This document shows positions 1,895 through 62,589 of a stretch of DNA of 64,000 bases, piece after piece. The notes below the pieces were generated by a model. The model did no database searches. It saw only the letters and a program-made list of their open reading frames with translations, and was not told where the DNA came from. This DNA is from Pycnococcus provasolii (taxonomy: Eukaryota > Chlorophyta > Pseudoscourfieldiophyceae > Pseudoscourfieldiales > Pycnococcaceae): the NCBI GenBank assembly GCA_938743325.2, contig OW568889.1:372001-436000 (forward strand). The letters run 5' to 3'. Positions within the stretch are counted from its first letter, which is position 1. Every line of letters starts with the position of its first letter. The position numbers and the translations under genes are program-made.

Positions 1895-1958
1895 GTGTGA
1901 ATGGTGACGACCGTTGGACAAAAAAAGTAAAGTGCACTCCATTACTGAATGAGCGATC
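1895..1958 (-). repeat. 3'-end dispersed element, copy A
   Basis: On the minus strand this copy begins 4 nt after the TGA stop of the 1959-3902 gene. It reads GCTCATTCAGTAATGG, then a CACTTTACT-TTGTCC core, then CGGTCGTC and CCATTCACAC. It fills the gap between two convergent genes and is one of the two most complete of the six copies in the window. Function is unknown; a 3'-UTR processing or termination role is inferred from position only. Confidence 0.75.
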
Positions 1959-3902
1959 TCATCCTTTATGTTTTTTCTTCTTGTCCTTGTCCTTAGTGAC
2001 CATGGAAGGATTGTAGAGGCGAATGCCGTGCCTGTGCATGGAAAGCTCGTGCTGTTCGTCAAGCTTCTTTAGTGCGCCCTTGTAGGCGGTATTCACAGCC
2101 TCCTCGCGCTCCCTTCGCTCGCGATGCAGCTGAACGCGCCGGTTGAGGTGTGAGTCAAGCTCAGCAGTGCGATGCATGAGCTCAGACTGAAGCATACCCG
2201 CCTCCTGCGAGCGTTGGTTCATCTGCGCACGCAGCGTGTTCAGGCGATTCTGCTGCTTACTCAGCTTCCCCTTCTTCATGCCCTTCAAAGCTGCCTGATT
2301 TTCGGCATATGTCTTGGCACGTGCCGCATTTTCGTGCTGAATCGACTTGACCTGCTCATGTAGGCGCGCAATGTCACCCTTCGCTTGCTTGACATTCTCC
2401 TGGTGATATCTCATTTGACCCGCAGCCCTCGACCCTCCATTGTAGGCCATGTTGGAGTGTGCACGCGCGCGCATGTCGTCAAGATGCTGCCGCTTGTTCT
2501 GGTACTCGAGCTCGCCATACCCTGCACGGCGCACGAACGACTCCCAGTCCTTCGACGAGTACCCTGGCGCCGGCCCGCCCTTCGCCATAAACATGCGATT
2601 CTCCTTATCCTTCTGCTTAATGCGCTCCTCCTTTTCCAACTTTCCGAGGTAGCCACTCGGCGTCTCGTGCTCAGTGATGGCTGGCTTGGTTTCCGTGTAC
2701 AGACCTAGCGCGTCGTACTTCATCGTCAGAGGCGTGTCACCTGTGCTTCGTTGATTGGCGTCTTCAGGCGCCTCCGACGCCTTCCCCCCGCCAACGTGCT
2801 GCAGGTTGAACCACTCGCCAGACGATCCTGGCCCGTTCTTCCATTCTGGGCCCAGGCTTTCGAGCGACATGTTGAAGGAGCGCCACACCTCGCGGTCGGG
2901 ACGCAGGCCGACATCCTCAAACACCTGCGTCCACCACTGGCGTGTCTGCATCGACTTCGGGATGTTGGGCGAATCCACCTCGGGCGAGTATGTGATCTGC
3001 GCGTCGCTCTGTCCCTCATATGCGGAGATGCCCACGACGAGCCGTCCTGCGGATACGCGAATGAGCTCGCGAAGAACCTTCGACACCATCTGCACAGGCA
3101 AGCGCTCGAGCACGTACGCGACCACCACCAGGCTGTACGTGCGGTCGCTCGCCGACACTCCACGCGCGAGAGGTGCCGCGGTCACCGCTTGTTGCGTTTC
3201 CATGATGTCCAGGCAGTGTGCGCTTAACCTCATTCTGTCAAAGTCAAACGGCTCGAGTCCTCGGATGGGTGTGTGAGGAAAGTCGTGCATGGCCATGCCA
3301 ACGAACTCGCACGCGTGCATGCCCACATACAGGATGGGCCTCGTTCCTCGCCTTGTGCCTCTTTTCGCCTTGACGGGGTTCTTTTTCCTCTTGAGCAGTA
3401 CCTTGAACTCCTCCTCAGCCTCCTTCTCGGACATGGTTGCGAACGCCTTGTTGTACACCTCCATGATTGGCACGAGAACGCGGCACGCTGTGGTGAAGCA
3501 CCTCGGCGGTGCAGGCGGCGGTGCAGGCGGCGGCGGCGCGGACGCGACTGGCGGCGGCGATGGCGGCGGCGGCGATGGCGGCGGCGGGAACGTCTCCGGC
3601 GTCTTCATGTTTCCCATCTTTTTGCTCATGCGTTCCTCCGCCATATCTTTGGTTTCTCCCACCTTGCTGAGTGCCTTCTTGAGGTCCTTTCTCTTTTCAT
3701 ATGTTTTCGACTCAAGTTCCGCGCGTTTATTTGCGTTTTGCGCGAATGCGCGTTCCGAGCGCGCGACAGCCTTGTTGACCAGGTTCACGCCGACGCTGTG
3801 CGGCAAGGTGGGCTGGGCCACGACGACTGCTGGTAAGGAAAATAGACAACATACACACCAGCACCAGCACCAAACGCTGAGGGGTAATAATCCTGACCGC
3901 AT
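1959..3902 (-). CDS. Membrane-anchored methyltransferase-like protein, CGR2/CGR3-like
   Basis: The chosen start, the ATG at 3900-3902, gives 647 aa beginning with a hydrophobic Trp/Cys-rich segment (about 8-30). That looks like a signal anchor or signal peptide of a Golgi protein. A proline-rich rod (about 101-136) follows. Then comes a Rossmann-like region (about 188-364) with VGMHACEFVG, GLEPFDF, SLVVVAYVLERLP, SAGRLVVGI and TRQWWTQVF. This order resembles plant CGR2/CGR3 homogalacturonan methyltransferases, but the glycine-rich SAM motif is weak. The C-terminus (about 490-625) is a basic coiled coil ending in a Lys-rich tail, which plant CGR proteins lack. An upstream in-frame extension to 4097 has only a TTG start. 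The gene is surely real; the enzymatic assignment is moderate and the substrate is not inferable. Confidence 0.6.
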   Translation of the reverse strand: MRSGLLPLSVWCWCWCVCCLFSLPAVVVAQPTLPHSVGVNLVNKAVARSERAFAQNANKRAELESKTYEKRKDLKKALSKVGETKDMAEERMSKKMGNMKTPETFPPPPSPPPPSPPPVASAPPPPAPPPAPPRCFTTACRVLVPIMEVYNKAFATMSEKEAEEEFKVLLKRKKNPVKAKRGTRRGTRPILYVGMHACEFVGMAMHDFPHTPIRGLEPFDFDRMRLSAHCLDIMETQQAVTAAPLARGVSASDRTYSLVVVAYVLERLPVQMVSKVLRELIRVSAGRLVVGISAYEGQSDAQITYSPEVDSPNIPKSMQTRQWWTQVFEDVGLRPDREVWRSFNMSLESLGPEWKNGPGSSGEWFNLQHVGGGKASEAPEDANQRSTGDTPLTMKYDALGLYTETKPAITEHETPSGYLGKLEKEERIKQKDKENRMFMAKGGPAPGYSSKDWESFVRRAGYGELEYQNKRQHLDDMRARAHSNMAYNGGSRAAGQMRYHQENVKQAKGDIARLHEQVKSIQHENAARAKTYAENQAALKGMKKGKLSKQQNRLNTLRAQMNQRSQEAGMLQSELMHRTAELDSHLNRRVQLHRERREREEAVNTAYKGALKKLDEQHELSMHRHGIRLYNPSMVTKDKDKKKKHKG

Positions 3903-4177
3903 CCCCTTAAAGCATAACGGCTGAGCATAACGGCGGTATGATCTTGAAGTACTATGAGCACTACTACAACTAGGCAAGGAGACAGGAAACATCAACAAGG
4001 ACAATGCCATGGCCATACGTGCACACACCCTTAAGGCGTTTCCGTTTCCTCGCAAGCACAACAAGCAGCGAGTGCGATCTTTCCGAACCAACAACAAGCG
4101 CGATCGGATGCGGGGGCGGGATGGCCGAACACCAATGAAACTTTACGCGTCCCCCTCCCGCCTCCTTTCGGCTTCAT

Positions 4178-4650
4178 CTGCGCCTTAAACTCCCGTTATG
4201 GCAGTGCAGTTTGCCTCCTTTCGCGGTTTTAATCTGCGCCTTAAACTCCCGTTATGGCAGTGCAGTTTGCCTCCTTTCGCGGTTTTAATCTGCGACTTAA
4301 ACTCCCGTTATGGCAGTGCAGTTTGCCTCCTTTCGCGGTTCCAATCTGCGACTTAAACTCCCGTTATGGCAGTGCAGTTTGCCTCCTTTCGCGGTTCCAA
4401 TCTGCGACTTAAACTCCCGTTATGGCAGTGCAGTTTGCCTCCTTTCGCGGTTTTAATCTGCGACTTAAACTCCCGTTATGGCAGTGCAGTTTGCCTCCTT
4501 TCGCGGTTCCAATCTGCGACTTAAACTCCCGTTATGGCAGTGCAGTTTGCCTCCTTTCGCGGTTTTAATCTGCGACTTAAACTCCCGTTATGGCAGTGCA
4601 GTTTGCCTCCTTTCGCGGTTCCAATCTGCGACTTAAACTCCCGTTATTTC
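4178..4650. repeat. 56-bp tandem repeat array, 8 full units plus a partial one
   Basis: Units start at 4178, 4234, 4290, 4346, 4402, 4458, 4514 and 4570, with a partial unit at 4626. Copies are almost identical, differing mainly at GCGC/GCGA and TTTT/TTCC positions. Each full unit contains CTTAAACTCCCGTTATGG and CCTCCTTTCGCGGTT. The TTTCGCGG core fits the plant E2F consensus WTTSSCSS. A regulatory role is inferred. The array has no spacers, so it is not CRISPR-like. Confidence 0.93.
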
Positions 4651-4951
4651 TCAGTATCCCCTATGTAGCCGGCCAATCAGCGTTTTCGGAGCTTGCATTC
4701 GTCCGTGGGCGGGTCCCACACTCCCACGAGGTGTCGTGGGCGAGCCGGCGAGGGGGGAAAGCGTCTGTCTGTCATGGAGACCTGTCGTGGAATGTGGATG
4801 CTTAAGCTGCTCAAAGAAACAGGCCATTATTGCCAGGAAGGTAAACAAGCAATCAATCGGCGCAGCAAGTAGGTTGGCGAGGTAGGTTGTCCATCGCCGT
4901 ACACCTGAACATAACCCCGAATTGAATTGAATTGAGTCCTTGAGTCATTGA

Positions 4952-5042
4952 GTTAGTTCGGGGTTCCATGATCAGGTTAGTTCGGGGTTCCATGATCAGG
5001 TTAGTTCGGGGTTCTATGATCAGGTTAGTTCGGGGTTCCATG
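4952..5042. repeat. 24-bp tandem repeat, nearly four units
   Basis: Units begin at 4952, 4976, 5000 and 5024. Each reads GTTAGTTCGGGGTTCCATG followed by ATCAG, with one C/T change in the third unit and the last unit cut short. The array ends about 80 bp before the UTP25 start codon. The in-frame ATGs it carries belong to a different frame from UTP25. Confidence 0.9.
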
Positions 5043-5121: not shown

Positions 5122-7695
5122 ATGGCGTCTCCACATCCGTCCCAGCCTTCTATGTCGCAGTCCATGGTGCAGTCTCCGTTCCGCTTGAAGTTTCATTATG
5201 CTGCTTCTGCTCCTGGTGCTTCTGGTGCTTCTGGTGGAGGAGGAGGAGGAGTTTTGGAGGAGGAGAAGAAGATGAAGAATTCGGCGCATGTTCCTGATGG
5301 TGCTGATGGTGCTGATGGTGCTGACTTGAGCTTACCTCAAAGAAGAAGGACGCTCGCTCCTCCTGGTGATGATTATGATGATGATGTCCCTGCTCCTTCT
5401 TCATCTTCCCACCCTTCTTTGAATCGCACGATTCAAAAGGCATCCACGCCTCAGTCTCAGCACTCTCATCAGACGCATTTGGGGGGGAAGAAGAAAAATC
5501 AGGATGCGTTCGAGTGGGTCACAGCCGCGTCGTCCCAAAATAATAATCAACATGCGACGAAGAAGGTACCGGACATACCTGCGTCGTCACACGCGGCGGG
5601 TGTGCCGCCCGCTATCGTGCGTGCCATCAAAATGGCGGCGGCAACGACAAACGCTTCCAAAGAAACAACAACGAGCAACGGGGCTGTCGTCGACGCGTCA
5701 GCACTTGGGGGTGAACTCGCACTCGAGCTTTTTCTACGCATGCAAAGCTATCGCGATGTCACCTTCGCAACCGGACAGATGGCGAAGGACATGGCACAAA
5801 AGGCAGAGTTTGTTGCGGCGGCGCATGTCGTCACGCACGTATTCAGACAGTGCGCAGTCGTCGCCGCGAACAACAAGGCACTCAAGGCGGCTCAGCTGCG
5901 TCGGCGAAACGTCATCACAGAGCGTCGGGCGGCGGCGGCTGCAGCCAAGTCCGCCGCGGAGGCGGAGGCGGAGGCGAAAGCGAACGCCACACAGGGGGCG
6001 GCTGAGGGCCGGCGCACGCTTCTTGCAACATACGACGACAACGACGACGAGAACAACGCAAATCGCGATGCACGGCGAGAGGAGAACGAAAAGCACCTCT
6101 CGGAGGAGCAGGAGCAGGAGCTTTTGGAGGTACCTGTCGCCCCTCGCGATCAAGGCTTCCACAGGGCGAAGGTGCTCATCCTGTGCCCAACGCGAGCGCA
6201 CGCCTACCGCCTGCTTCGTACTATCGTCATGCTCACGCCTAGCGCGCATGCAGCTGATTTCCAGAAACACGTGGGTGCAATCGTCGCAGGCGACGGATGG
6301 CAACGCTTCGAGCAGGAGTACGGCGGAGATGCCGACGACGACGGCGGCGGCGGCGGCGGCGAAGATGGTGGTGGCAATAAGAGGCAGGGCGTCGGCAGGC
6401 GGCGGAATGCGCTCAGCGGAGCATTCGCAGGCTGCTCTACGCAGGACGAATATGCCGCGCAATTTCTTGACGGAAGCCCAAACACCGACGACCACTTTCG
6501 CATCGGACTTGCCATGCAACGCAGCCGCTGGCGCTTTTTTTCCGACTTCTCCGCGGCGGACGTGATTGTCGCGTCGCCACTCGGGCTCGTGACACTTCAC
6601 ACGGACGAGGTGAGTCGCACCATGGAAGGTGGTTCGCGAAAGCGCCGGCGGCGTGGTGATGCGGCTAATGGCGCGACCAAGTCGGCAAGCGACGAGCTGC
6701 CGCCGCCGACCCTCACGGACGTGCTCAGCAGCATCGAGGTGCTGCTGGTGCATGCGCACGACGCCATGGTGATGCAGAACCACGCGCACGTTGACACTGT
6801 CGGGTCGCTGCTCAACATGCTCCCTGGGGAGGGAGAGGCGTGCCTGAAGGTGTCGGGCGCGCATTCCGGTATTGACTTCTCGCGCGTACGCGAATACTTT
6901 CTGTCCTCTGGCGGCGGCAAGTCGCGGAGACAGACGGTGGTCATCACGAAGCACGACTCGGAGTTGCTGCGTCGATGGGCGCGAACTCACTGCTCGAATG
7001 AATGGGGCACCGTTTCGCTGCAGGTGAAAATTGCGACAAATGGGTCGGCTGCGCTCGCACGACTTCCCGCGGATCATCCAAAGTCACCGACGCACCGCTT
7101 TCGGCGATTCGATGCATCTTCGCCAAGCGATGCACCTGCGGCGCGCCTTGCAGCGTTCGAGTCGCTCGTCGCACCCTTTCTTTCCATGGGCAGGCTTGGC
7201 AGGAAGGCTCGTGACGAGGCTGGATTTGCCGCAGCTGCGCCGCGGACGCAACGCCTTTCCGCTGGCGGAGTCGTGGTGTTCGTTCCCGACTACCTCGACT
7301 ACTGCGATTTCCGCGCGTTTATGAGGAAGCTGAGCGAGGCTGAGGAGAGCGCGGTTGCCTACATGAGCGAGTATAGCTCTAAGGCACAGAGCCTTGCGGC
7401 GAGAAGGGCGTTCGAGGATGGCACCGCCAAAGTCCTGCTGTGCACTGAGCGTGCGCACTACTTTCGTCGCGCCATTCTCCACGGCGCACGCCACATAGTT
7501 TTCTGCCAGCTGCCACTTGATGCTACTTTCTACGCGGAACTCAGCGCCTACACGAGCCTATCGAGCGAGGGTGGAGATCGTGGGACGGTTGAAACACTCT
7601 TCTGCTCTTGGGATCGCATGAGACTTGAGCGAGTGGTGGGATGGGCGAAAGCGCGCAAGATGATGTGCGGAGACAAAACGGACTTCACAATGTAA
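5122..7695 (+). CDS. UTP25: UTP25 (DIEXF), U3 snoRNP-associated rRNA-processing factor
   Basis: The 857-aa protein is the nucleolar SSU-processome component UTP25/DIEXF, a pseudo-helicase needed for 18S rRNA maturation. Family blocks appear in order: VLILCPTRAHAYRLL (about 351), the acidic ERFEQEYG region, RFFSDFSAADVIVASPLGL (about 475), a HAHDAMVMQNHAHV block, VVVFVPDYLDYCDFRAFM (about 718), YMSEYSSKAQSLAARRAF (about 748) and HIVFCQLPLDATFYAEL near the end. The family has a degenerate P-loop and DEAD box, and none is seen here. The N-terminal 190 residues are low-complexity and acidic. The ATG at 5122 has A at -3 and G at +4; the upstream extension to 5062 begins with GTG and was not used. 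It ends convergently with the gene at 7737. Confidence 0.93.
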   Translation: MASPHPSQPSMSQSMVQSPFRLKFHYAASAPGASGASGGGGGGVLEEEKKMKNSAHVPDGADGADGADLSLPQRRRTLAPPGDDYDDDVPAPSSSSHPSLNRTIQKASTPQSQHSHQTHLGGKKKNQDAFEWVTAASSQNNNQHATKKVPDIPASSHAAGVPPAIVRAIKMAAATTNASKETTTSNGAVVDASALGGELALELFLRMQSYRDVTFATGQMAKDMAQKAEFVAAAHVVTHVFRQCAVVAANNKALKAAQLRRRNVITERRAAAAAAKSAAEAEAEAKANATQGAAEGRRTLLATYDDNDDENNANRDARREENEKHLSEEQEQELLEVPVAPRDQGFHRAKVLILCPTRAHAYRLLRTIVMLTPSAHAADFQKHVGAIVAGDGWQRFEQEYGGDADDDGGGGGGEDGGGNKRQGVGRRRNALSGAFAGCSTQDEYAAQFLDGSPNTDDHFRIGLAMQRSRWRFFSDFSAADVIVASPLGLVTLHTDEVSRTMEGGSRKRRRRGDAANGATKSASDELPPPTLTDVLSSIEVLLVHAHDAMVMQNHAHVDTVGSLLNMLPGEGEACLKVSGAHSGIDFSRVREYFLSSGGGKSRRQTVVITKHDSELLRRWARTHCSNEWGTVSLQVKIATNGSAALARLPADHPKSPTHRFRRFDASSPSDAPAARLAAFESLVAPFLSMGRLGRKARDEAGFAAAAPRTQRLSAGGVVVFVPDYLDYCDFRAFMRKLSEAEESAVAYMSEYSSKAQSLAARRAFEDGTAKVLLCTERAHYFRRAILHGARHIVFCQLPLDATFYAELSAYTSLSSEGGDRGTVETLFCSWDRMRLERVVGWAKARKMMCGDKTDFTM

Positions 7696-7699
7696 CAAT

Positions 7700-7739
7700 T
7701 TGTACACGCAATTCCATTACTGAATGATGAGCCATCTTA
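7700..7739 (-). repeat. 3'-end dispersed element, copy B (truncated)
   Basis: On the minus strand the TAA stop of the 7737-8213 gene is itself part of the element, reading TAAGATGGCTCATCATTCAG then TAATGGAATTGC. The distal GGTCGTCCATTCAC half is missing, and the sequence runs into the UTP25 stop codon. Confidence 0.65.
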
Positions 7740-8213
7740 GCTTTTATTGTTTGGTGGTGATGATTCGCTCTTGTTGTTGTTGGCTTGTTTCGGCTGTAGC
7801 GACGGCGGCGGCGTGTGTGCTGCGGCATGTGTTCGTGTCGCCGCCAAATCTGCATTCTTGACGTGTGGCCATGACGGTGTAAATTTGAAAGCGTGCTCCT
7901 CCTCCTGAGGCTTGGCTGCTGGTGGTCTCGGTCCTTCGTTTGACGTCCCCGAAGAAAGCAGCCTCCACACGCGCCACTTCGGATCCTTGTGTTTTCTTTC
8001 GTATTTGCCAGAAGCGTTGTGCTCTATTCCGCCGACGTGGTCATCAGTATTATTATTGTCTTCTTCTTCCTGGTCGCCATCATCATCATCATCATCATCA
8101 TCATCAGAATTTGTGTTTGGTGCGAGACAGCACATTGGCGACGATTTCGCGCGAGGGAAGGAACTGCTGCTGCTGCTGCGACCACCACCACCAGTCGTTT
8201 TGCGCGACGACAT
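7737..8213 (-). CDS. Hypothetical low-complexity protein, 158 aa
   Basis: I do not recognise this protein. It starts with an ATG at 8211-8213; an in-frame extension to 8228 starts with GTG. It has a Ser-rich N-terminus, a run of nine Asp encoded by (ATC)n on the plus strand (8082-8105), an acidic Glu/Asn stretch, a short conserved-looking basic block (KYERKHKDPKWRVWRLL, about residues 75-91) and a Gln/Asn/Pro-rich tail. It lies downstream of CFAP47 on the same strand, 137 bp apart, and its stop codon lies inside repeat element B. It could be a real small gene or a conserved 3'-flanking transcript. Confidence 0.5.
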   Translation of the reverse strand: MSSRKTTGGGGRSSSSSSFPRAKSSPMCCLAPNTNSDDDDDDDDDGDQEEEDNNNTDDHVGGIEHNASGKYERKHKDPKWRVWRLLSSGTSNEGPRPPAAKPQEEEHAFKFTPSWPHVKNADLAATRTHAAAHTPPPSLQPKQANNNKSESSPPNNKS

Positions 8214-8349
8214 TGATGATATGCGCACGTGAAGTGAATTTGTCTGGGGGGAATCTGGGTCGACCGGACTCCTCCCCCCTCGTCTTCGAAAAGGGGTTAG
8301 AAAAAAAAGTAATCATAACAACAAATTGTCTGTCTTTTGAAACAATCAA

Positions 8350-17300: not shown

Positions 17301-17952
17301 ACGAACCAAGCTCCGCAGCGGTGTACTGCACCTTCACTTGCCTCGACTCTCCAGGCGGCACCCCGCCTTTGGGCGGGTCAAGCACAATAGGCACCACTCC
17401 ATCGAACTCAGCGCGCCACGTCGCCTTCTGCTTGCCCGTGTTGGTGATAGTGATGCGCTTTTCGGTCGACGCTTCGTGTATGATAGCACCAAAGTCGAGG
17501 TCGCCGCTCAGCGAAAGCCGCCCCTTCGGCCCAAGTGCGTGCAGCGGCACCTCGAAGTCGAGGTCGGCGGTGCAGACGTGCACGCCGTCGAAGTAGTCGT
17601 CTTCGCTGTCCGCGACAAAGGTAACCTCGAAGGCGAACTCCATTCCCGGCGCTAGCCTAACTGTGAGGCTCGGAATACCCCTAATCTGAAAGAAAGACGT
17701 CGCCGGCCGCTTGACGCGCAGCGTCTGGATCGTCGGCGAGACATTCTTCACGGTAACAAGTCGGCTGACTGGTACGTCCTTGACGTTCTCGACGACAACC
17801 TCCGCGGGGTATATTCGCAGCACGGACGACTGCACAGGCTTGCGCGGTTGCCGCTCGCGCGGCTCCGCGGTTGGTGATTCAGGCGGCGAGTTTGCCACCG
17901 CGGGCGGCGCGGCGACTGCCAAGCTAGGCGCCTTGGAAGCTTGCCTCTGCAT
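8350..17952 (-). CDS. CFAP47: CFAP47 homologue, cilia- and flagella-associated protein 47
   Basis: A single uninterrupted ORF encodes 3,200 aa. CFAP47 belongs to the axonemal central apparatus and is built of many ASH/MSP-type Ig-like domains. Those repeats are visible throughout (for example IDFGKIATLSTTTRCLAVTN, SFRFSP-like and WTYMLRGTLP segments). A calponin-homology domain lies at about 1780-1895, containing SSSELLLLGWC, YDFNDGLVIYALLVRHW and DERDMLIFVLYLSQMLP. It is preceded by a helical LLKSYDAMLSFLKSHGCLL region typical of CFAP47. A Gly/Ser/Ala-rich linker (about 2250-2300) interrupts the Ig array. The ATG at 17950-17952 opens the ORF. The absence of introns over 9.6 kb is notable. 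Domain order and length match CFAP47 rather than HYDIN or CFAP65. Confidence 0.93.
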   Translation of the reverse strand: MQRQASKAPSLAVAAPPAVANSPPESPTAEPRERQPRKPVQSSVLRIYPAEVVVENVKDVPVSRLVTVKNVSPTIQTLRVKRPATSFFQIRGIPSLTVRLAPGMEFAFEVTFVADSEDDYFDGVHVCTADLDFEVPLHALGPKGRLSLSGDLDFGAIIHEASTEKRITITNTGKQKATWRAEFDGVVPIVLDPPKGGVPPGESRQVKVQYTAAELGSYSGRVDFYLGQGGTDSKLPTAIPFQATVVSQSFEMLDEKGNPLKSLDVGPCFYGSEIRRKLKVVNNGPSVAKYYVRIGPKADIDATTVDDEEIQDAAVAGVSIVSKLRRWKQAARNQTFTISPLDGVLEPYEVREITLKFRPDRKGDTAKGFTSQPSEDDGSSTAYSFATVVGFLGIKKNIKVDLGGQGIVPSVTIDPPVLRFGDATVGERLDIPVTVTNDSNDLACMVKLNPPSYFHVEPRQLLIPPGHSSSLLCWYQPKAMGKHSAAIQVDVFSEGASGSSPGVLNRTLECHGQAHGVTKASLRASRAPDALPEDFEPVRSFVEEDGWAPSGKGSAADGRARRRVRETSPLPRGGSERDMTEFSLTDREIVTKKAHENEYTEYMRRSAKYRKAAAETIKPMPSLKKKSAPMTADVLDPGLDLGIDMYSGLMAPMPSLPTEKDPLFIDTKYTDGSFVKPHNRALLIEEEAVLLAAAPAESEFPQGDMAKVCSTRLKTSEITSIAVGPRVIDFGKIATLSTTTRCLAVTNGFKKPIKISVDSHLFEELRESKPTTLVVKPGDTRGLPIVFMAKNAGKHALKLGYVINDYHFHSVTLLIEVVPVTLNVSSELLPFRFSPDNYGYEVKEMLTLSNPNSMRAEFSLELINPEVGGGANAALVEKIRSANGRFSFRPTSGVVNPKETLDVTITWRVPPSKTGAVSDETTMLLKVVGGQERAVKLTGTLPDSRVVSKEKEIDFGVFATGTSSTHSIVLRNRGANDASIVLDESILFALGDKLEISKKKARIGAGQSVEFELTLHLNEAEEIDEKVVFYVRGGKPVKVAMKAKAVIPDLIVESPRLDMGDVNIGGSCRRPLHFRNTGPVETVFHIDMKNAGQFRLELPRDGGGWNMEDYKNYPPLSKVRTEGGGVSPSQGSTMTIDDPSLEDRPIPEGHVYRLVVLPGNNLRLNLVYRPREVGRKDLELTCMVLGADESTYPVIDIQYNGLRPRLIVSDSIVDFSQRIILMDRQRKMPYTLEMSIKNNDRVPLKWHFGSPMVSVDGNDAINADWTSADDPFATPPLGAHTFSIEPRRGELGVKESANIRLHFLPKEPLSHEAVVPLYLDGEEKKSYLDLELRGQGRLPRLLFDVTEVVLAPTPLGVRTVQRFHVLNDGYTNLELQCKMPQDSNRIPISLHFPEGRMIGLAKNRLPVDVRFTSDKPMSFTAEIEVLDEDGNRYPLAVTGTADNSIFTTYSFVRANAAILETAAASEQSPVRLRIPEPVQLEPGHGKAAITEPFHMLNPFNPRACMKTDSLLRPRVVSSALARYFAATTGRKIDELAHDCSSSRGRLMIELIQRISGKQIQGVRGGNPGGGAGVAAAQIGGVKAMETPSIGGGSANANLRKFEQTENLLKSYDAMLSFLKSHGCLLNIVKAEMLLDGDDLKRAVEYRETVLEPAGSRDDADVVAADEHGVVKAPSGAILESWRSLENQRDHVNAVAWHYVYSQIVKVFVAQKINNKTIRTFPGIGDPNLLLAAAGFHVANSGAGDQSSPNARLAEKRAAEGGNAEEEAKPENPALASNLYSSSELLLLGWCTAHFQAALPAVARRVTNFSYDFNDGLVIYALLVRHWPAFEALAGSIKKDVVTDADRHANCANVAKMCEDLGLVYKLTAEELFNPDERDMLIFVLYLSQMLPMYVPCAVVQFTANVAREMVNNIELSNPSSRPIHYVARIVGHEDFTVATTFVNVEPKEKAFFEIKCTPSTTRQTNARLILTPTGIDEGGALASVLCFELRNQADESDPLETLQMAAKAYEMRTRELMVQNPFPYDVELAITYNPCPVPKPPEPELTEQEKKELERKEKKAAMERARKGKPAKVEVPLSELLQPNPDEPQKGPGRPLPFAVDRKTLRLKQGETGKLVVSYLPWDEGQEAVKIRFEEKDYGAFSYMIVGTAQTPNPTVTQKLSFELDEEAVHDISIPIPFNNSLCDSARRIFLERHPLAKNKEMAEMCRNAVQDTPHELMYLVRRENPFVNGPKVLTIFSKDIIRAGSNAAQNKVGPAGEGSGSGDGSGDGAAGDGAGSAAGAEDSGATNAGTDGAAAEGEQSQGMMISPAGGASTNRSTAQHTNVLQLRFAPRKAGSYPCKIVLQGLYDIRVVDIDITVPAPQMVAKLDFEGPCRSQMLQMIPLVNAGERPLTVRANLTGADSFSGPREVTVPASSSGEYPLKFYGRTAGEYLGNLQLSVGTSSSDRVNPNEQSKYELRGLCQAPLAESRIEFDCHARTESSITLRVPNVVGGREVRYSVFTDISFVSGGAELVVPAAPAPGTGGGHSSGAHNDGEPKPPPTTEYKLRALPPRSGLYTGCVTFLDTMSGQYCWFVLDVRVSRPPAEDIVRLKCPVREAVVASVSVSNPLDYDVTFAVSTVDCPGVIVEPTFEIASKSSSTFDVIFSPLVPGHITNGLLFFSSDIEGEFWYRIDAEAEPAAPIALAPMTSEVGLRTETTVSVTNPTGEEIVLSLSSDNPRNFVPNPAAGLVLPPFGTGEVHIEYAPSSLGTVERGVVSLSHRNAGTWEYEISGTGTPPTTMEETNISCVVSQSATAHLAFRNPFSYSLVCDVRLEQSGEKSEPFKLLIPTRKSARGYTVAPFGQLTIPLVYSPDEMRESRGSVVIDAVPRTPADAAIESSVDDDIPPSEASTDTLSTAVAGGAVRWTYPIVGVAEAAGVGAVLRFEGKARRRLDETFEVTLSGLTEENHGEEFTCKVLADAEHAAALAKSLFVTPLSDKIDLNAPLRFRLTFTPLKTMQAQVAFVVTKASGGRWRFVLQLDVSGPEPDGRVVVTAAVHEIGSTALAIRQEGGTPVKFEAKILDLGNVSSIDELTVSPTSGTMPTDGPLILNIGYAPVEYGKESSGLLVVTSDQQEWTYMLRGTLPAYVPPAVGPKVSTNLGEKSKTALSTAIKHGTHVPFVKQNLSLKDVKRHTTDITGKDAASSAISFYHLGTGSDQRSLT

Positions 17953-19687
17953 GTTGCGGGTGCCCCGTTCGCGTCGTTCCGCCTACCTCAGTTCGTATGT
18001 GTCCGCCGCGAGCGTGGGACGTCTCTGACGACGCACCGGCCGTTGCGCACGTACGTTTGCGTTGCCGTAGTCGCGCCCGCCTAGTTGCGTAGCTTCTCAG
18101 CGTTGGTGTGGCCTGAGCCGAGGCGGTGAATCCGTGAATTGCGCAGTTGGTCCCAGGATACCCGCGGGTCCCGGAGAGGGAGGGAGGCGAGAACTGGGGA
18201 GAGGAGGAGAGAGGGCCTTTCCTCGCTCGAGAGAAGAACCAGCAGAGCACCTGGTCCAAGAAACACTGCCGTGAAGCCGTGAAGCCGTGAAGCCGTGAAG
18301 TGGAGTGGAGTCGTTGGGAAAGCTTTGAGCCTCCTACACTCGCTCCAAAGGGCCTACCCGGTAGTAGAACCATGCTACTGTGTATGCTCGTTCTCCCTTG
18401 TTGCCAATACAATAATAGTCTAAGGTCGGCTGCGTTTGTGTTTGCTTTTCTGGAAAAGAAAAGCATTGCAAAGAAGATGGCAAGCAGAGAGCCTCAGCAA
18501 TTCCCCTTGTTGTTCCCCTCAGGTTGTTGTACCACGAGGAACCTGGTAAGTACTGTACCACTACCACGGGCCACGGCAACACACAAGTGGTTGCAACTTG
18601 CAAGAGTGGAGTGGTTTCACTTTCGGAGACCGGTTTCCCTCGTCGTCGTCTTATTAGACCTTTAGACGAATAATAAGGGGTCGTGGTTACATAATACAAT
18701 ACTACGATAATCCTCCTTCTTCGACCTTAGACTACGGTGTTATCTAACGGTTCCTTGTGGTCTTCCTGCTCCTTGTGTTTCTTCGGTTGCTCGCTTCCGC
18801 CTCTCCGCCTGGCTGCCTAGGTGGGGTTTTCTCGCCTCGCCGTCGCCGAGCCTTGCTTGACCTGCCTCTGATCTTCTGATGGGAGGTCGGCCTGCCATCA
18901 CCTCCCCGTCCCTCCAGTCCCTGATAGAGGAGATGAGGCACCTCCCTCATCAGGGCTCAGGCATCCTTTGGGCCTTTCGGGAAAAGCACATACTGGAGGC
19001 CTTGCGTGAATTTGTTGGGGATTCGCCTTTGCATTGCATGCGCATCGTTGCTTCGTCTAAGCTATGAGTACCCGGGTAGTGTGTCGATCGGCTGGCATCG
19101 AGTCAACTCGTCTTGGTTTAAGGTTAGGACTTTAGGTGAACAATCCCCGATCAGGCGATCAGGCGTCGGGACTCGGTCGGGGTTCGTCGTCCCGTGTTGT
19201 GTCGTTCAGCGATGCAAGTAACCCTTACTTCGGCTTGCATAGACTAAGTTGCATCGAAGCGCGGTCGGTGGTGTAGTACTACCCTACTGGTGTCGCCTCG
19301 GAAAACGCGGCCGAACGACGCTGGGCCTTGACGTTTGGAGGTGGCAGGCTGTGTGCGCCCCCGGGCTCGCCTTCGAGCTCACCCCGACCACGAACACGAA
19401 TCCTGGACTGGACTGGAAAGGAAAGGGGCAAGACGAACCGACGACGACCGACTCTGTTGGCCCATAGTACAGGTACCACAACCAATACGCCATCACGAGA
19501 CGAGACGAGACCAACTAGCCGACGGAGTCGCAGTCGCAGTCGCACGTGTCAAGTAATAACGGGTGGTACGAAAGGGACTACGCAAGTCGGCCTCTCGCTC
19601 GTAGATACTGCTCTGCTCTCGACGAGACACTACGGGAAGAAACAAGCTGAATCGCGCGTGTCTTTGTGAAAACTGCTTAGGAGAACG
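17953..19687. other. 1.7-kb divergent intergenic region, no convincing gene
   Basis: This gap lies between the starts of CFAP47 (-) and the 19688 gene (+). It is purine-rich on the plus strand at 18178-18220, which means pyrimidine-rich in the CFAP47 leader. It carries four 8-bp CCGTGAAG repeats (18269-18300) and a small inverted repeat (18444-18464, 8-bp stem). A donor-like GGTAAGT at about 18545 and an acceptor-like CTGCTTAG ending at 19680, seven bases before the next ATG, could mark a 5'-UTR intron of the 19688 gene. Short ORFs here look random. Confidence 0.5.
18269..18300. repeat. 8-bp tandem repeat (CCGTGAAG)x4
   Basis: Four exact head-to-tail copies of CCGTGAAG lie about 320 bp upstream of the CFAP47 start codon. 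No function is apparent. Confidence 0.9.
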
Positions 19688-37076: not shown

Positions 37077-37093
37077 ATAGATAGATAATAACT

Positions 37094-47634: not shown

Positions 47635-47973
47635 TGCAAGGCCGACACGTCTGTTTAGCAAGGTAACGGCACTCACCGTTGCGTTGCAGGTTCACCAAGC
47701 CATCCTACTTTGTGTGTTCACCATCAGGCTCTGGCATGAAGGCGTTGCCTGGGCATCACGAGTTTGTACTTATTATTGAGTCGGACCGCGGACGTTCAAA
47801 CTTGACTTCACCCCCAAACCAGACCGTCTAGCCATGTATGTACGGGGGATGCATTGTTGGTCGACTCCCGAAAACGGGCAGGGCTCTCCCAAAACTCCCA
47901 TCAGAAACTCCCATCAGACTCCCACCGCACCTCGCGAAGAACCTCAGCATATTCACACCGCGATCCAAACTCC
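47635..47973. promoter_or_regulatory. Divergent promoter region of two surface/Golgi genes
   Basis: This ~340-bp gap between divergent starts contains a short direct repeat (AACTCCCATCAGA, near 47894-47920). No other signal was recognised. Confidence 0.4.
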
Positions 47974-50900
47974 ATGAGGCGTGTCGGCGTCGCTGCGCGG
48001 GACGTCGAGCAAGGCCAGACGAGGTCGCCTTCGCTGTCGAGAAGCGGCTCAGGAGGCAAGCCGCCCCTTGCGCCGATCCAACGAGATGTTGGCCAGCGAG
48101 CTACGTACGGGCACCAGAGTGTAGAGAATAACGATCACTCGCACGCGTCGAGGCGTTGGGTATGGATTGTCGTAGTTGTGGTGCTGATTATCGCCGGCGC
48201 GATCGGAGTGGTGTTGTTCGGCGAACACCGCTCGGAAACTTCACCGCATACGCGTGAAACATTCAAGTTGAGCGCTTCGACGCCAAGCACCTTGGATCGG
48301 ACGTCAGCGTCCACGGGGTATGTTTCGCAGGCCGAGTCCGAGCAAATGGCCGATGAGCACGGCGACGCTGCTGACGAGCACACAGCGGAGTCGCCGACGG
48401 AGTCTCACGCGGACGTCGAGGCGGTTGCCGAGGAGCCCGAGCAGATGGCTGACGAGCACGCAGCGGAGTCACCGACGGAGTCTCACGCGGACGTCGAGAC
48501 GGCCGCCGAGGAGCCCGAGCAGATGACTGACTCGCATGAGGAGGTCGAGACGGCCGCCGAGGAGCCTGAGCAGATGGCTGACGAGCACGGCGACGCTGCT
48601 GGCGAGCACACAGCGGAGTCGCCGACGGAGTCTCACGCAGACGTCGAGGCGGCCGCCGAGGAGCCCGAGCAGATGGCTGACAAGCATGAGGAGGTCGAGG
48701 CGGCCGCCGAGGAGCCCGAGCAGATGGCTGACGAGCACGGCGACGCTGCTGACGAGCACGCAGCGGAGTCACCGACGGAGTCTCACGCGGACGTCGAGGC
48801 GGCCGCCGAGGAGCCCGAGCAGATGGCTGACGAGCATGAGGAGGTCGAGACGGCCGCCGAGGAGCCTGAGCAGATGGCTGACTCGCATGAGGAGGTCGAG
48901 ACGGCCGCCGAGGAGCCTGAGCAGATGGCTGACGAGCACGGCGACGCTGCTGACGAGCACACAGCGGAGTCACCGACGGAATCTCACGCGGACGTCGAGG
49001 CGGCCGCCGAGGAGCCTGAGCAGATACCTGACTCGCATGAGGAGGTCGAGACGGCCGCCGAGGAGCCTGAGCAGATGGCTGACGAGCACGGCGACGCTGC
49101 TGGCGAGCACACAGCGGAGTCACCGACGGAATCTCACGTGGACGTCGAGGCGACCGCCGAGGAGCCTGAGCAGGACCTGGCTGACTCATTTCCACCCCCA
49201 GACACACCATTGTCGCCGTTCATGCCGCCACCGCATCCTCCTCCGCTTGCACCTCCACCTGTACCGCCTCCACCGCCTCCTCCACCATTTATCCGCTCTG
49301 CGGTTCAACTTGCCGAACTCAAATCAAATATTGCATTTCCCATAACGCCTAAATTTCATCCGCAAATCACAGAATACTTCATGACTATTCCACGGGGCCT
49401 CCCCAACGTCGTATTAATGGCACGCATGAAAGAGTCCGACGCCGTCCTGAAATTCGACGAGTACTTAATAGGAGCCGATACTCTCGTGCATGGTAGCGGC
49501 GTGATATCAGTTCCTGTGGGTGGATTCACCACCGCAACTTTTACAGTCGAATCCAGGACTAGGATGATAAGTGATTTGACGTCGACATACACAGTCACCA
49601 TTTATCGTCGCTCGGATGATCTCGAAGTACAGGCAACAGATGCACGGTTGACTGCTCTTGTCGTTCAGGCAAACCTTGCGCAGAGACAGACGAAGATACA
49701 GCCCAAATTCAACGCTAAGAGATTGGGCGGGTCTTACACTGTGAAAATTCCACACGAATGGGAGAACTTTCGCTTGCTCGGCATGTCTTTCCCAGGAGCA
49801 GGCAGCGTGATCACAGGAAATCAAGTGCAAAAATTGGAGCTCACCGCAGCCACGGCGGCTTCGGCAGGCTCAACATACACACTGGTTTGCACATTTGCCG
49901 CGGTTGACCCAGGTGCACACATTTTTGTTGATGGGACTGACTGTGGAGTCGATATGGATCACACTCGAGGGCGTGATATAATACGAAAGCTGAAGGTGGG
50001 GCAAAATGACTTCAACATCACTGTGATCAGCGCCAATGGCATGTTCTCTGCCTCGTACTACCTGAATGTATATCGTGAAGCTGACAAGAGCGCTGAATTG
50101 CTCGAAAAAGCAACAAAATCACGAGGAGCTGAAATGCTAAAAACTTTGAATGCAAATCCAGGCAATCAGGCAGTGGCGAGGGCAGCCCACGATAATGACG
50201 CCATCTTCGACTTTCTCAAGGAGAGAATTGAGCGATGCATGGGTGCACCAAATCCATGGACGCCTTTGCTACCCCGGGATATGGACCGGAAACGAAAGCA
50301 CTCGCGTGTGGAGATATCAGACGAGGACGAAACAGGAAAAATCGATTCGATTGTCGATCTTGCGATGAAGACGAGCTTGCGACTTCGCCCACCCGCGAAG
50401 GCGCGCTCACCTCCATCGCCCCGTGAAAAAGACGAGGTTGCAGAGCTTATCGAGCAGCTGGGGATGGGAAGGGTGAATGCTTCAGAGTTTGAGGATTGTG
50501 ATGCAAAGGAATCCTCGGAGGAAAAGGCTATCTGTGAATGCAAGCAGTACAACATATGCAGTAAAAGCACAATGATTGCGATGGATAGAGCTGCGGCACG
50601 CGAGAGGCGAGCACGCACTGCGTCAAATGCGGCGGAGGCTGAACCAGCGGTTGCCAGTGAGAACGAGGACGGGGAAGATGGTCCATCAAGTGGAGCCCGT
50701 AGATTGCTCGGTGGTGCCGCTGCGCGCGAAGTTGCGAGACAGTTTGCTCGATTGAAGGATTCAAATGATCGTGCTAAGCCATCTGATGCTCCGAAGCCGG
50801 CGTTCCAACTCATGCAGCAGCGTGTACACGACAATACAGGCCAGTTCTTTCCTGACGGAACATCACGTGAAATCAATGCTATCGAGCGCAAGGTTGCTGG

Positions 50901-51921
50901 GTGCCTGCGCGATTTTTCGAGTTGCCCGTTGAGCGCTGATGAGATGACAAAAACGCTCATGATGCTCAAATCTATGTCTCGATTTTCAAAAGCTCGTTTG
51001 CGCTGCGCAACACTGGGCGGAGCGGACTGCTCCTCGTCTTCAACAACAAATCCTGAGACGGGCTCGGGTGCATCGGCATTGAAGCGTATCCGTGCTGCTG
51101 GCATCTTTTCACCCTTACCAACACGACGGCTCCGCACATGTGCGGTTGTTGGAAATGCGCCCGGAGTTGCGCTCTCGACACTCAACGGTGGTGCCATCAA
51201 CCGACATGACGCCGTTTTTCGAGTTAACCTTGCACCAACGCTTGGTTATGAGCGCCACGTCGGCAATCGTACGTTCGTGCGCGTAATGGACGCGCGCACG
51301 CTCCGTAAGTTCACGGATACCGCGCGCGGCAACATGCCGCAGCCGTCGCTCCTTCATCACGATCTGCATCTTGATTCCCTTGACTCGACGTACCACCACT
51401 TCGGCATTGCCTCACCCAACGATGGCATAGGTGGCTGGGCCTTGTGGCACTACGGTATGTTTAGCGACCATTCGCGGGATTCACAAATCCTTTCCATGAC
51501 AAAACGTGTTGCACAGGCTGGCCAGGCATTACACGTGGTGCATCCTGACATGATATCGTGGCAGGCTGACGCGGCATTTTCGTTAATGCGAGATACGATT
51601 CGCCTTGGCATGGCCCCGAAGCGTGGTCCAGGCTCCGGTTGGGGCTATCCCACCTTTGCATCGCTTAGCTCTGGCATGCACGCGCTGTTGATGGCGACGC
51701 AGATGTGCGATCGCGTCAACGTGTTTGGGTTCTCGCTGGCAGCAACGAGTGCGGCTGTGCCTGGTGCCGTAGCGGCAACGGCTGACGGTGTGCCTCGGCG
51801 ATACTACGGAGCAGTTGCTGACTCAGAAAAGCCAGGATTGTGGCGAAATCATGCGTGGCAATTCGAGGCAAACGCGTTGAAGCTCCTCGCTCTTAGCGGC
51901 GCGGTCAATGTTTGCTCATGA
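47974..51921 (+). CDS. GT29 sialyltransferase-like protein with acidic repeats and cadherin-like beta-sandwich domains
   Basis: The 1,315-aa type II membrane protein starts at ATG 47974; the TTG-initiated extension was rejected. A single anchor (about 65-84, VVVVVLIIAGAIGVVLF) follows a short cytosolic tail. Acidic tandem repeats (about 123-406) built on EEPEQMADEHGDAADEH and EEPEQMADSHEEVE form a stalk, followed by a Pro run. Two cadherin-like beta-sandwich domains (about 446-546 and 556-702) carry the YTVTIYR-type ending. The C-terminal GT29 domain (about 1050-1315) shows the L motif (CAVVGNAPGV, then NRHDAVFRVN), the S motif (GWGYPTFASLSSG, then CDRVNVFGF) and the terminal HAWQFE (H-x4-E). 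GT29 enzymes transfer sialic acid or related acids in the Golgi; the donor here is unknown. It converges with the AAA gene, 35 bp away. Confidence 0.9.
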   Translation: MRRVGVAARDVEQGQTRSPSLSRSGSGGKPPLAPIQRDVGQRATYGHQSVENNDHSHASRRWVWIVVVVVLIIAGAIGVVLFGEHRSETSPHTRETFKLSASTPSTLDRTSASTGYVSQAESEQMADEHGDAADEHTAESPTESHADVEAVAEEPEQMADEHAAESPTESHADVETAAEEPEQMTDSHEEVETAAEEPEQMADEHGDAAGEHTAESPTESHADVEAAAEEPEQMADKHEEVEAAAEEPEQMADEHGDAADEHAAESPTESHADVEAAAEEPEQMADEHEEVETAAEEPEQMADSHEEVETAAEEPEQMADEHGDAADEHTAESPTESHADVEAAAEEPEQIPDSHEEVETAAEEPEQMADEHGDAAGEHTAESPTESHVDVEATAEEPEQDLADSFPPPDTPLSPFMPPPHPPPLAPPPVPPPPPPPPFIRSAVQLAELKSNIAFPITPKFHPQITEYFMTIPRGLPNVVLMARMKESDAVLKFDEYLIGADTLVHGSGVISVPVGGFTTATFTVESRTRMISDLTSTYTVTIYRRSDDLEVQATDARLTALVVQANLAQRQTKIQPKFNAKRLGGSYTVKIPHEWENFRLLGMSFPGAGSVITGNQVQKLELTAATAASAGSTYTLVCTFAAVDPGAHIFVDGTDCGVDMDHTRGRDIIRKLKVGQNDFNITVISANGMFSASYYLNVYREADKSAELLEKATKSRGAEMLKTLNANPGNQAVARAAHDNDAIFDFLKERIERCMGAPNPWTPLLPRDMDRKRKHSRVEISDEDETGKIDSIVDLAMKTSLRLRPPAKARSPPSPREKDEVAELIEQLGMGRVNASEFEDCDAKESSEEKAICECKQYNICSKSTMIAMDRAAARERRARTASNAAEAEPAVASENEDGEDGPSSGARRLLGGAAAREVARQFARLKDSNDRAKPSDAPKPAFQLMQQRVHDNTGQFFPDGTSREINAIERKVAGCLRDFSSCPLSADEMTKTLMMLKSMSRFSKARLRCATLGGADCSSSSTTNPETGSGASALKRIRAAGIFSPLPTRRLRTCAVVGNAPGVALSTLNGGAINRHDAVFRVNLAPTLGYERHVGNRTFVRVMDARTLRKFTDTARGNMPQPSLLHHDLHLDSLDSTYHHFGIASPNDGIGGWALWHYGMFSDHSRDSQILSMTKRVAQAGQALHVVHPDMISWQADAAFSLMRDTIRLGMAPKRGPGSGWGYPTFASLSSGMHALLMATQMCDRVNVFGFSLAATSAAVPGAVAATADGVPRRYYGAVADSEKPGLWRNHAWQFEANALKLLALSGAVNVCS
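48340..49190 (+). repeat. Coding tandem repeats of the acidic stalk
   Basis: Two interleaved unit types encode a long block (EQMADEHGDAADEH, then AESPTESHADVE) and a short block (EQMADSHEEVETAAEE). Copies are near-identical at DNA level over about 850 bp, which indicates recent length change. Confidence 0.88.
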
Positions 51922-51956
51922 CAATTTTCCTTTCTTATGCTACAAATTATTTTTTC

Positions 51957-57432: not shown

Positions 57433-57496
57433 GAGATCGTCCACGCTAGATTTGTTGAAAGAAAGAACTTGTTGCGATTTGTTGTTGTTTCAAAAA

Positions 57497-57543
57497 GATT
57501 GGGCAAAGTAAAGCAAACTCAATTACTGAATAAGCCATCTTAC
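57497..57543 (-). repeat. 3'-end dispersed element, copy C (truncated)
   Basis: On the minus strand it reads TAAGATGGCTTATTCAGTAA then a GCTTTACTTTGCCCAA core, beginning 12 nt after the tafazzin stop. The distal GGTCGTCCATTCAC part is absent. It lies between two convergent genes. Confidence 0.7.
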
Positions 57544-57555
57544 AAGAAAATAGTC

Positions 57556-58575
57556 TTACACGGCATTGCGACCTGACAATTCGTCGTGCCTCTTCCTTGC
57601 GACGTTATGGAGCTGGAGCAGCGCATCGGAGATGCGTTGCGTCGCTCGTTGCTGCGCCTCCTCGTTCGTGCAATTCTTCGTGCAGCAGCTCATGTCAATC
57701 GGATCGCCAACGACGACGACGACGACGTTGCCACCGCGGGGAAGCACGTTGCCGATGCCAATCACACCTTCCATTCCGACGTGAGCGAATGGCACAACCA
57801 GCGGAAGCGTACCATCTTCGCTTCGCGCCAGCGCCAGCTTAGCCGCGCCTCGTCGCGCCGGGGCGATCGAGCCGTCGCGCGACCTCGTACCCTCGGGGAA
57901 GACGTGCACCCAGTCACCACGCTGTAGTGCAGTCTCTGCAGCGACCATGCCGGGCTGTGACAGTCCAAGTCCACGCTCAACGGGAAGCACCTTGACGAGC
58001 CTGAAGAACTCCGAAAGCGTGGCACCTTTGGAGAAACACCGATCCGTCGCGCACATCGTGTAGCGCAGCCCGCGCGCGTCGAAGACGTATCGAAGAGGCA
58101 TCGACGCTGCTACGACGAGCGGATCGTCGAGCGAAGCGACGTGGTTGCATACCGTGACGATACCGCGACCTGTGTCTGCGTGCTCGGCGAGAGCGTCGTG
58201 GAGCCCTTTCCAGTTGTGCACCTCCGTGGTGTTGAACGCGTACATGAACGTCCTGCTGATCGCCGCTAGGCTTCCTAGCAGAACACGTCGAGCGAGCGCG
58301 CGTGCGGGATCGAGGTCGTCTCCAAGGATGTGCGTGGCATCCGCCGTCGCGTCTTTTTCCAAGGACGAAATCTTTCCTCTCTCTGTGTCTGGCATGTATG
58401 GTATCTGTGGTCTTTTCCTTTGTTCGACGGTGGAAGTCGTCGGCCATCGCGCCAATACGAGCGCGTTGGCGAGTCTTCTGACGACGGAGTTGTCCTCGAA
58501 TATCCTCACGGTTGCGGTCCCGACGGCGGCGCTGGACGTCGGCGTCGGCGTCGGCGGATCCGAACGGCTGCCCAT
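57556..58575 (-). CDS. TAZ: Tafazzin, phospholipid-lysophospholipid transacylase
   Basis: The 339-aa protein matches tafazzin, which remodels cardiolipin acyl chains at mitochondrial membranes. The acyltransferase motif NHVASLDDP (H145, D150) is intact. It is followed by the family blocks ATDRCFSK, FRLVKVLPVERG, GDWVHVFPEGT and PLVVPFAHVGM. The ATG at 58573-58575 is the first in frame. An extension to 58725 would start at GTG and translate telomere-like repeats, so it was rejected. No intron is present. It converges with the Rad5/HLTF gene, with element C between them. Confidence 0.93.
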   Translation of the reverse strand: MGSRSDPPTPTPTSSAAVGTATVRIFEDNSVVRRLANALVLARWPTTSTVEQRKRPQIPYMPDTERGKISSLEKDATADATHILGDDLDPARALARRVLLGSLAAISRTFMYAFNTTEVHNWKGLHDALAEHADTGRGIVTVCNHVASLDDPLVVAASMPLRYVFDARGLRYTMCATDRCFSKGATLSEFFRLVKVLPVERGLGLSQPGMVAAETALQRGDWVHVFPEGTRSRDGSIAPARRGAAKLALARSEDGTLPLVVPFAHVGMEGVIGIGNVLPRGGNVVVVVVGDPIDMSCCTKNCTNEEAQQRATQRISDALLQLHNVARKRHDELSGRNAV

Positions 58576-59368
58576 CACAGCTGCTGCTTGGGCAGGGACG
58601 ACTCGCCGAAACGGCGACGTGGCTAACCCTATCCCTAACCCTAGCCCTAACCACCCCTCCCCAACAACCCTAATCGCCCCGTCCCCGGGCTTGAATTCTT
58701 GAATTGTCTTGAAAATTGAAGGCACGGGTATCCGTTGGTGAATCCGTTGGAGGCGCGGAACTCAAATTTCGGAGGGCGGGAGAGGAGAGGGACCCCATTG
58801 TTAAGCTCCCTTCCCGAGCACTTCCCGAGGGCGGATTGGATGGCTCGACCAATGGTGAGCTATCGTTTGACTGCCTGCCATGCCTTCAAGTGTTGTCCCG
58901 TTGTTGCCTTCTGTTGTTGTCTCGAGAACAACGTGTTGTTTGAAGAGGAAGATGCCACCCATAAGAATACGCTCCTTCCTTCCCTCTCTCTTCCTTGTCT
59001 TATTCGTTCCACAATCCCACTTCCCTCCCTTTCCCTTCCCTTCCCTTCCCTTTCCCGCGACCCTTCCTTTCAAGCCTCTCCTCTCTCACTGCGCACTTGC
59101 AAGGCACTGTCATTTGCAGCCTCACAACACACTCACTACCACGAGTCATTCGCAGCAACGCAACTCCACCTGCAACACCACGCGCAACACGCGCAAGCAC
59201 AAACACACTCGTAGCTACCTGCGCACAGTAATTGTGCACAACAAGTTGCACAACAACACGTAGCTGCCTCACACCCAGTTCACTCAGTTTCGGCAGTCAA
59301 CGCAAGGTCCAACTGCGAAGAGCAAGAGAAAGCGGCCGCGGAGCTACCAACCAACTTAACAACCAACC
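58576..59368. promoter_or_regulatory. Divergent intergenic region between tafazzin and the Hyp-rich protein gene
   Basis: It holds a telomere-like stretch (58621-58677) next to the tafazzin start and a long pyrimidine tract with CCTTCC repeats (about 58970-59090) on the side of the plus-strand gene. Short ORFs here are low-complexity and not supported. Confidence 0.5.
58621..58677. repeat. Interstitial telomere-like repeats
   Basis: CTAACCCTATCCCTAACC, then CTAGCCCTAACC and, after a gap, ACCCTAAT make about five degenerate CCCTAA units (TTAGGG on the minus strand). They lie 46 bp upstream of the tafazzin ATG. They may act as telo-box promoter elements, known from plants, or be a relic of telomere repair. 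Confidence 0.75.
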
Positions 59369-62341: not shown

Positions 62342-62527
62342 ATCCCGCTCAATTCATTTTCAAAGAATGTAAAACGCAATGAGGTTATTATTGAACAGGG
62401 AACAGATATCAAATATACGTCGCGATCAAAACGGCGCCGTCTTGCGAAGGTAGAAGGCAGTCTACTGTAGTCTATGCTATGTAGCAAGAAGGTGTGCACG
62501 TGCGCGCTGAACGGCGCAGCTTGCGTT

Positions 62528-62589
62528 GTGTGAATGGACGACGGCTGGACAGAGTAAACTGTATAACGTTACTGAATGACTGATGTTAG
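62528..62589 (-). repeat. 3'-end dispersed element, copy D
   Basis: On the minus strand it follows the Tubby TAG stop directly: CTAACATCAGTCATTCAGTA, a CAGTTTACTCTGTCC core, then CGTCGTCCATTCACAC. It lies between convergent genes. Confidence 0.75.

Follow-up and report, generated by a model that had tools for sequence, protein, structure and literature searches.

A family of six short interspersed repeats lying in sense at or near stop codons, with two blocks that may form a linear cis-element of the 3′ UTR

The stretch of DNA analysed here, called the window, is 64 kb long. Its long uninterrupted open reading frames (ORFs) and its G+C content of 57.7% suggest an intron-poor, perhaps prasinophyte-like genome. 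Twenty genes were modelled as mechanical ORFs; the segment 40162-47676 was counted as one gene despite its two ORFs 153 nt apart, ORF 7737-8228 was counted although without a Pfam match, and ORFs 17924-18466 and 26006-26563 were left out as doubtful. The noncoding DNA amounted to 8344 bases, divided among divergent gaps (4172), tandem gaps (2218), convergent gaps (1710) and the window edges (244). The Pfam families found in the window mark it as eukaryotic: UTP25, carnosine N-methyltransferase, MYCBPAP, SNF2-HIRAN-RING (HLTF-like), Tubby and acidic ribosomal protein. Against solved structures in the PDB, which cover few species, three flagellar proteins had as their best matches FAP47 (1286 bits, compared to 411 for the next chain, a CFAP47), FAP253 (448 bits, next 266) and FAP147 (96 bits, next 63), chain names that we take to be those of Chlamydomonas. 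The PDB chain nearest to the ribosomal protein was 4v7e_Cu, presumably from wheat, and the only matches of a HEAT-repeat protein were artificial repeat proteins. As the axonemal proteins are closest to FAP chains, we infer a green-algal genome.

Other features were visible along the window. Tandem arrays with periods of 56 bp (4064-4735) and 24 bp (4928-5042) lie in or beside the divergent gap upstream of UTP25. The acidic ribosomal protein P1 (26643-26969, minus strand) has a C-terminus that departs from the usual GFGLFD-type ending. ORF 47854-51921 (plus strand) encodes a GT29 sialyltransferase-like protein with a cadherin-like domain, and contains repeats at 48334-49284 with a spacing of mostly 150 bp.

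A unit of about 60 bp recurs downstream of six of the 20 modelled genes. It is built of blocks in collinear order that are common to unrelated genes: M1 (TCATTCAGTAATGG), M2 (CTTTACTTTGTCC) and M3 (CGGTCGTCCATTCACAC). Direct reading and a module scan of the window located the six copies at the sites given by the first-pass annotation. They are listed below with the E-value obtained with a profile of all six copies (nhmmer) and that obtained when the copy itself was left out of the profile.

Copy A: 1896-1962, minus strand; follows ORF 1959-4097 (minus); M1, M2 and M3; E 1.6e-12, left-out E 3.7e-10
Copy B: 7692-7740, minus strand; follows ORF 7737-8228 (minus); M1 and degenerate M2; E 5.4e-8, left-out E 6.4e-5
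Copy C: 29108-29173, plus strand; 68 nt past the CARNMT1-like gene 27529-29040 (plus); M1, M2 and M3; E 5.1e-11, left-out E 2.1e-4
Copy D: 37092-37146, plus strand; follows the RNase_T-RecG fusion gene 32883-37076 (plus); M1 and M3; E 3.7e-8, left-out E 5.7e-4
Copy E: 57491-57543, minus strand; follows the acyltransferase gene 57556-58725 (minus); M1 and M2; E 7.8e-10, left-out E 4.7e-5
Copy F: 62526-62590, minus strand; follows the Tubby-like gene 62590-63801 (minus); M1, M2 and M3; E 2.3e-10, left-out E 0.0048

All six copies are genuine members of a single family. Run over the whole window, the profile retrieved only those six (E 1.6e-12 to 5.4e-8), the next match having an E-value of 14. 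Profiles made from five copies each retrieved every held-out copy (E 3.7e-10 to 0.0048), and the best match to anything else across the six runs over the window was at E 5.2. With up to two mismatches, the 14-nt core of M1 matched the window at the six sites only, and the 17-nt M3, ungapped, in copies C, D and F only. A motif-free comparison of 22 noncoding intervals with one another gave matches up to E 0.011 that were all between element-bearing intervals, except for one pair whose limits had been drawn so that they overlapped; copy B appeared in this comparison only at E 0.075. Pairwise identity among the copies is 54-80%.

Read in sense, the unit is (G)CTAAGAT-N-GCTCATTCAGTAATGGA, a spacer, CTTTACTTTGTCC, then AACGGTCGTCCATTCACAC. 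This structure, as proposed earlier, is complete in A, C and F, which carry M1, M2 and M3, and incomplete in B, D and E. M2 is found in C, E, F and, enlarged by TTT, in A; it is degenerate in B and missing in D. M3 is found in A, where a CA insertion splits it, and in C, D and F, and is absent from B and E. Insertions of 3 nt occur in copies A and B, that of copy B inside M1. Two copies have in addition a fourth block, M4.

M4 of copy A: 1863-1885, minus strand; 10 nt past M3; 20 of 23 positions identical to the block of copy C
M4 of copy C: 29258-29280, plus strand; 84 nt past M3; counterpart of the block of copy A

The identity of 20 out of 23 exceeds the highest value in 2000 shuffles (18). 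Because M4 is common to A and C, at least these two copies descend from a longer unit. By eye, a perfect 18-bp palindrome, CAAATCGAGCTCGATTTG, was seen at 29252-29269, where it overlaps the M4 of copy C; copy A retains part of it. The presence of a collinear unit in unrelated genes is best explained by copying and not by repeated new evolution.

As described earlier, the hosts are unrelated genes; no common function of the six was visible. The name methyltransferase-like, given to host A, found no support in Pfam, where this host had only a sub-threshold match to Fez1. Host E, called tafazzin, is an acyltransferase according to Pfam, which gave nothing narrower. The host of copy D (32883-37076, plus strand) encodes an RNase_T exonuclease domain fused to a RecG-type helicase. 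Immediately past copy D lies a 68-codon frame that starts with ATG (37149-37355, plus strand). It is similar to the Walker A part of MutS domain V, at profile positions 1-19 of 188 (Pfam E 0.0022; score 18.5 bits, below the cut-off of 30.2), and looks like a piece of a mutS-type gene.

The strongest result concerns the position of the copies. Measured to the last base of the stop codon of the gene read in sense, the 5′ edge of the element is at -3 nt in A and B, 0 in F, 13 in E, 16 in D and 68 in C. The proximity to stop codons announced by the first-pass annotation therefore holds, with its distances of 0-17 and 72 nt corrected to -3 to 16 and 68 nt. In copy B the stop TAA does belong to the element, of which it is the first triplet (TAAGAT); in copy A the stop TGA occupies the same place. 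Copy B fills the 41-nt gap to the convergent UTP25 gene and contacts both stops. With random placement the probability of falling within 16 nt of a stop was 0.022, corresponding to approximately 3e-8 for at least five of six copies, in a simulation from which the two gaps of less than 44 nt, including that of copy B, were missing. When these two gaps were restored the values became 0.023 and approximately 4e-8, and 1.4e-6 for four of five copies without copy B. The stop-anchored placement is thus strongly non-random.

The evidence from orientation is weaker because in a convergent gap either orientation follows some gene. On the 20 gene models, four copies do lie between convergent genes, as had been counted before; copies were found in four of seven convergent gaps, two of six tandem gaps and none of six divergent gaps. 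The argument that random insertion would give neither one position nor one orientation consequently stands for position and was overstated, as regards orientation, for the four convergent cases. That all six copies are in sense to the preceding gene is partly automatic, and reduces to the five informative copies (A, C, D, E and F), all of which are in sense (one-sided p = 1/32). In these five, the M1 end faces the stop.

The first-pass annotation had seen in the element either a shared 3′-UTR or termination module, or a mobile element targeting stop codons. The placement ties the unit to gene 3′ ends, as the first proposal said, but a general termination or polyadenylation module does not agree with the 14 of 20 genes that have no copy. 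Weak versions of M1 and M3, searched with weight matrices in the first 100 nt past the stop of these 14 genes, scored at the level of shuffled sequence (combined p 0.71 for M1 and 0.46 for M3), and of the 28 single p-values the smallest was 0.015, for M3 in the MYCBPAP gene. Presence is all-or-none among the 20 modelled genes, and a general 3′-end signal was rejected on the copy-free genes and the chance-level matrix scores.

Passages of PMC1868727 describe UGUAA as the 3′-UTR poly(A) signal in many green algae. That signal is a 5-mer near the cleavage site of many genes, whereas the unit described here measures 60 bp and follows six of 20 modelled genes. TGTAA was present in seven of the 20 flanks of 120 nt for 2.8 expected, a count reached in 2 of 300 shuffles. 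It ranked ninth among 5-mers, without correction for the number of words, several G+C-rich and element-derived words ranking higher. AATAA showed no enrichment in these flanks. TGTAA lies within the element in copy D and overlaps its 5′ edge in copy E, and it was not found within 200 nt in the other four element-bearing genes (A, B, C and F). This distribution neither shows nor excludes a role in 3′-end formation.

The blocks differ in their degree of conservation. In the M1 core, TCATTCAGTAA, 4 of 66 cells are off consensus, and in the M3 core, GTCGTCCATTCA, 0 of 48, compared to 16 of 36 in the spacer. In these column counts the small insertions were taken out by hand and the blocks were delimited after the data had been seen; column permutation gave p values of 0.003-0.02, depending on window size. 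Neutral evolution was simulated as a star decay of four copies, with B and E left out, followed by re-alignment with MAFFT, and the sets were scored by whether they equalled the runs of invariant columns seen in the data (12; two longest 17). In a first simulation these runs were reached in 0.5% and 0.25% of 400 sets, which were too rich in mismatches (mean 84 vs 66 in the data). When the sets were matched on total mismatches including the flanks, they were reached in 11% and 21% of 636. When they were matched on pairwise identity within the element, and M2 was deleted from one copy as in D, the values were 0.6% and 0.3% in 351 sets and, when the matching was relaxed, 1.2% and 1.5% in 664. We regard this last design as the fairest of the three. 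Conservation thus seems higher in M1 and M3 than in the spacer, with a significance that depends on the calibration (p 0.003 to 0.2), and we consider constraint on these two blocks likely.

In none of the six copies did the RNA fold better than shuffled sequences (z -0.57 to 0.62), and the alignment of the copies contained no consensus base pairs. Rfam gave no match at threshold over the whole window; with the limit relaxed to E 10, copies A (E 4.6) and C (E 0.92) each had a single match, at chance level, and copy F had none. A structured RNA, a riboswitch or a tRNA-like element was dropped on these grounds. The tRNA match in Rfam that the head of a tRNA-derived SINE would give was absent at the relaxed limit from A, C and F, and at the gathering threshold from B, D and E. 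Target-site duplications and terminal inverted repeats did not exceed the 95th percentile of shuffled flanks (6 nt) in any of the six copies, in which decay could hide them, and M1 to M3 contain no palindrome. A coding sequence was also rejected: one consensus frame is open, but mismatches are spread evenly over the codon positions (13/86, 18/84 and 17/80). The likeness of M1 to a universal stretch of 18S rRNA, to Pol III A and B boxes and to the oomycete initiator, compared via Rfam alone, was not retained. Neither was an intron of the opposite strand, for which a suitably placed AG was seen by eye only in B, D and F, while the models place no gene antisense to C and D.

Searches outside the window gave little. 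Five DNA patterns compared with viral contigs selected two loci, and two patterns compared with bacterial and archaeal genomes selected one. The profile scores of these three loci were weak (E 0.016, 0.11 and 0.2, in sequence preselected for the pattern), and the patterns, which allow no mismatch, would miss most of the six copies. No relatives of two proteins of the window, one of which comes from an element-bearing gene, were found in viral contigs. These viral, bacterial and archaeal collections are not meant for eukaryotic genomes, and absence from them says little. In the literature, searched through titles and abstract openings with most subscription papers outside the scope, no description of the element was found among the records listed. 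Six motif 13-mers, looked for in literature text, led to two papers on bitter-taste receptors, with a single occurrence in each.

Three known systems can be compared with the element. SIDER elements are several hundred nucleotides long. Passages of PMC2689281 place 57-69% of the copies of Leishmania in sense in 3′ UTRs, compared to 3.6-8.3% antisense in 3′ UTRs, and report post-transcriptional roles. As described there, SIDER elements are degenerate, short, interspersed, mostly in 3′ UTRs and mostly in sense, which makes them the nearest functional parallel. The five informative copies of the window are all in sense and stop-proximal, with a predicted location in 3′ UTRs. SIDER hosts are trypanosomatids, whereas the present unit is about 60 bp long, starts at or near the stop and belongs to a green-algal-looking genome. 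The axonemal proteins nearest to FAP chains, and the genes that often switch strand, indirectly argue against a trypanosomatid host.

The nearest positional parallel is REP, short dispersed repeats found 3′ of genes. Passages of PMC12306157 count only 446 of the 4,072 REP of E. coli at a distance of up to 15 nt from a stop; these are believed to reduce translation or to make ribosomes stall. The proximity to the stop is shared by five of the six copies (-3 to 16 nt). REP are palindromic and bacterial, whereas no palindrome in M1 to M3 and no conserved fold was found here. In lineage and modular build, the nearest parallel is the introners of Micromonas, which passages of PMC4815162 describe as groups of motifs with variable spacing, mostly in gene sense, and passages of PMC4815162 and PMC9860276 as mostly intronic. 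Both are copied modular units, of green algae in the one case and of a probable green alga in the other. Introners are introns mostly inside genes, whereas all six copies are 3′ of stops and none splits an ORF. Passages of PMC4951065 on the length and structure of 3′ UTRs in Micromonas do not mention such an element.

The family is probably a small copied element that now resides in mRNA tails, with a putative function. Copying and placement are strongly indicated. Going further, our best reading, held tentatively and at somewhat less than even confidence, is a family of short interspersed repeats of the nuclear genome, kept in sense in 3′ UTRs and perhaps co-opted for regulation, in which M1 and M3 constitute a putative linear cis-element. 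It is based on six copies in 64 kb of one genome, with the orientation taken from the five informative copies. In this model, copying placed a small element at the 3′ ends of many genes, the candidate routes being retroposition, DNA transposition and introner-like insertion. Transcription in sense would make each copy the beginning of the 3′ UTR of its host mRNA, and M1 and M3 would be retained as a linear, unstructured two-block element. Most likely, a putative protein bound to M1/M3 would affect the stability, translation or 3′-end choice of a subset of genes. Any function would operate by linear sequence, since neither a folding signal nor consensus pairs were detected. Against this functional reading, B and E are without M3, D is without M2 and the hosts have no visible common function.

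The strongest competing reading, only a little less favoured, is that the copies are neutral mobile-element relics. A decayed, non-functional SINE- or MITE-like element that inserted near stops, or survived there as the least harmful place in a dense genome, is a serious though less probable possibility. It would account for the copy-like collinearity, the truncated B and E, the pairwise identity of 54-80%, the longer ancestor of A and C and the lack of any trace in other genes, and block conservation was non-significant in the simulation matched on total mismatches. Conservation looked, however, block-wise in the column permutation and in the other two simulations, no copy has a target-site duplication or inverted ends, and neutral survival in gaps alone leaves the clustering within 16 nt of stops unexplained. 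A mobile element that targets stop codons, the alternative of the first-pass annotation, is possible, but the copies showed neither target-site duplications nor terminal inverted repeats, and the searches outside the window yielded no additional copy.

A site acting at the DNA level, a transcription terminator or roadblock between close genes, putatively bound by a protein and mainly serving convergent pairs, would fit the distribution of the copies over convergent, tandem and divergent gaps. We consider it improbable, as two copies lie in tandem gaps, three convergent gaps are empty, including the 35-nt gap 51922-51956, and a DNA block needs no fixed side toward one stop. More doubtful still is an introner of the 3′ UTR, a short repeated intron with a GT or GC donor in the M1 core (CA/GTAATG) and a candidate acceptor past M3: GT or GC was seen by eye at the donor place in all six copies and the motif groups, variable spacing and mostly intronic, sense location of Micromonas introners (passages of PMC4815162) are in its favour, but no profile match interrupts an ORF, conservation continues for approximately 18 nt on the 5′ side of the presumed donor, and M3 is absent from two copies (B and E).

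The functional reading has a broader form, which we hold to be rather unlikely: a short eukaryotic element that copies itself specifically to stops, in sense, and by installing a two-block 3′-UTR module brings its hosts into one post-transcriptional regulon. If six of 20 genes per 64 kb were typical, an extrapolation, the genome would contain hundreds to thousands of copies. The lineage may be the algal one known for the introner, another sense-biased repeat. If genome-wide, the family would show in compact form how a dispersed repeat can provide genes with 3′-UTR elements that are firmly tied to the stop codon.
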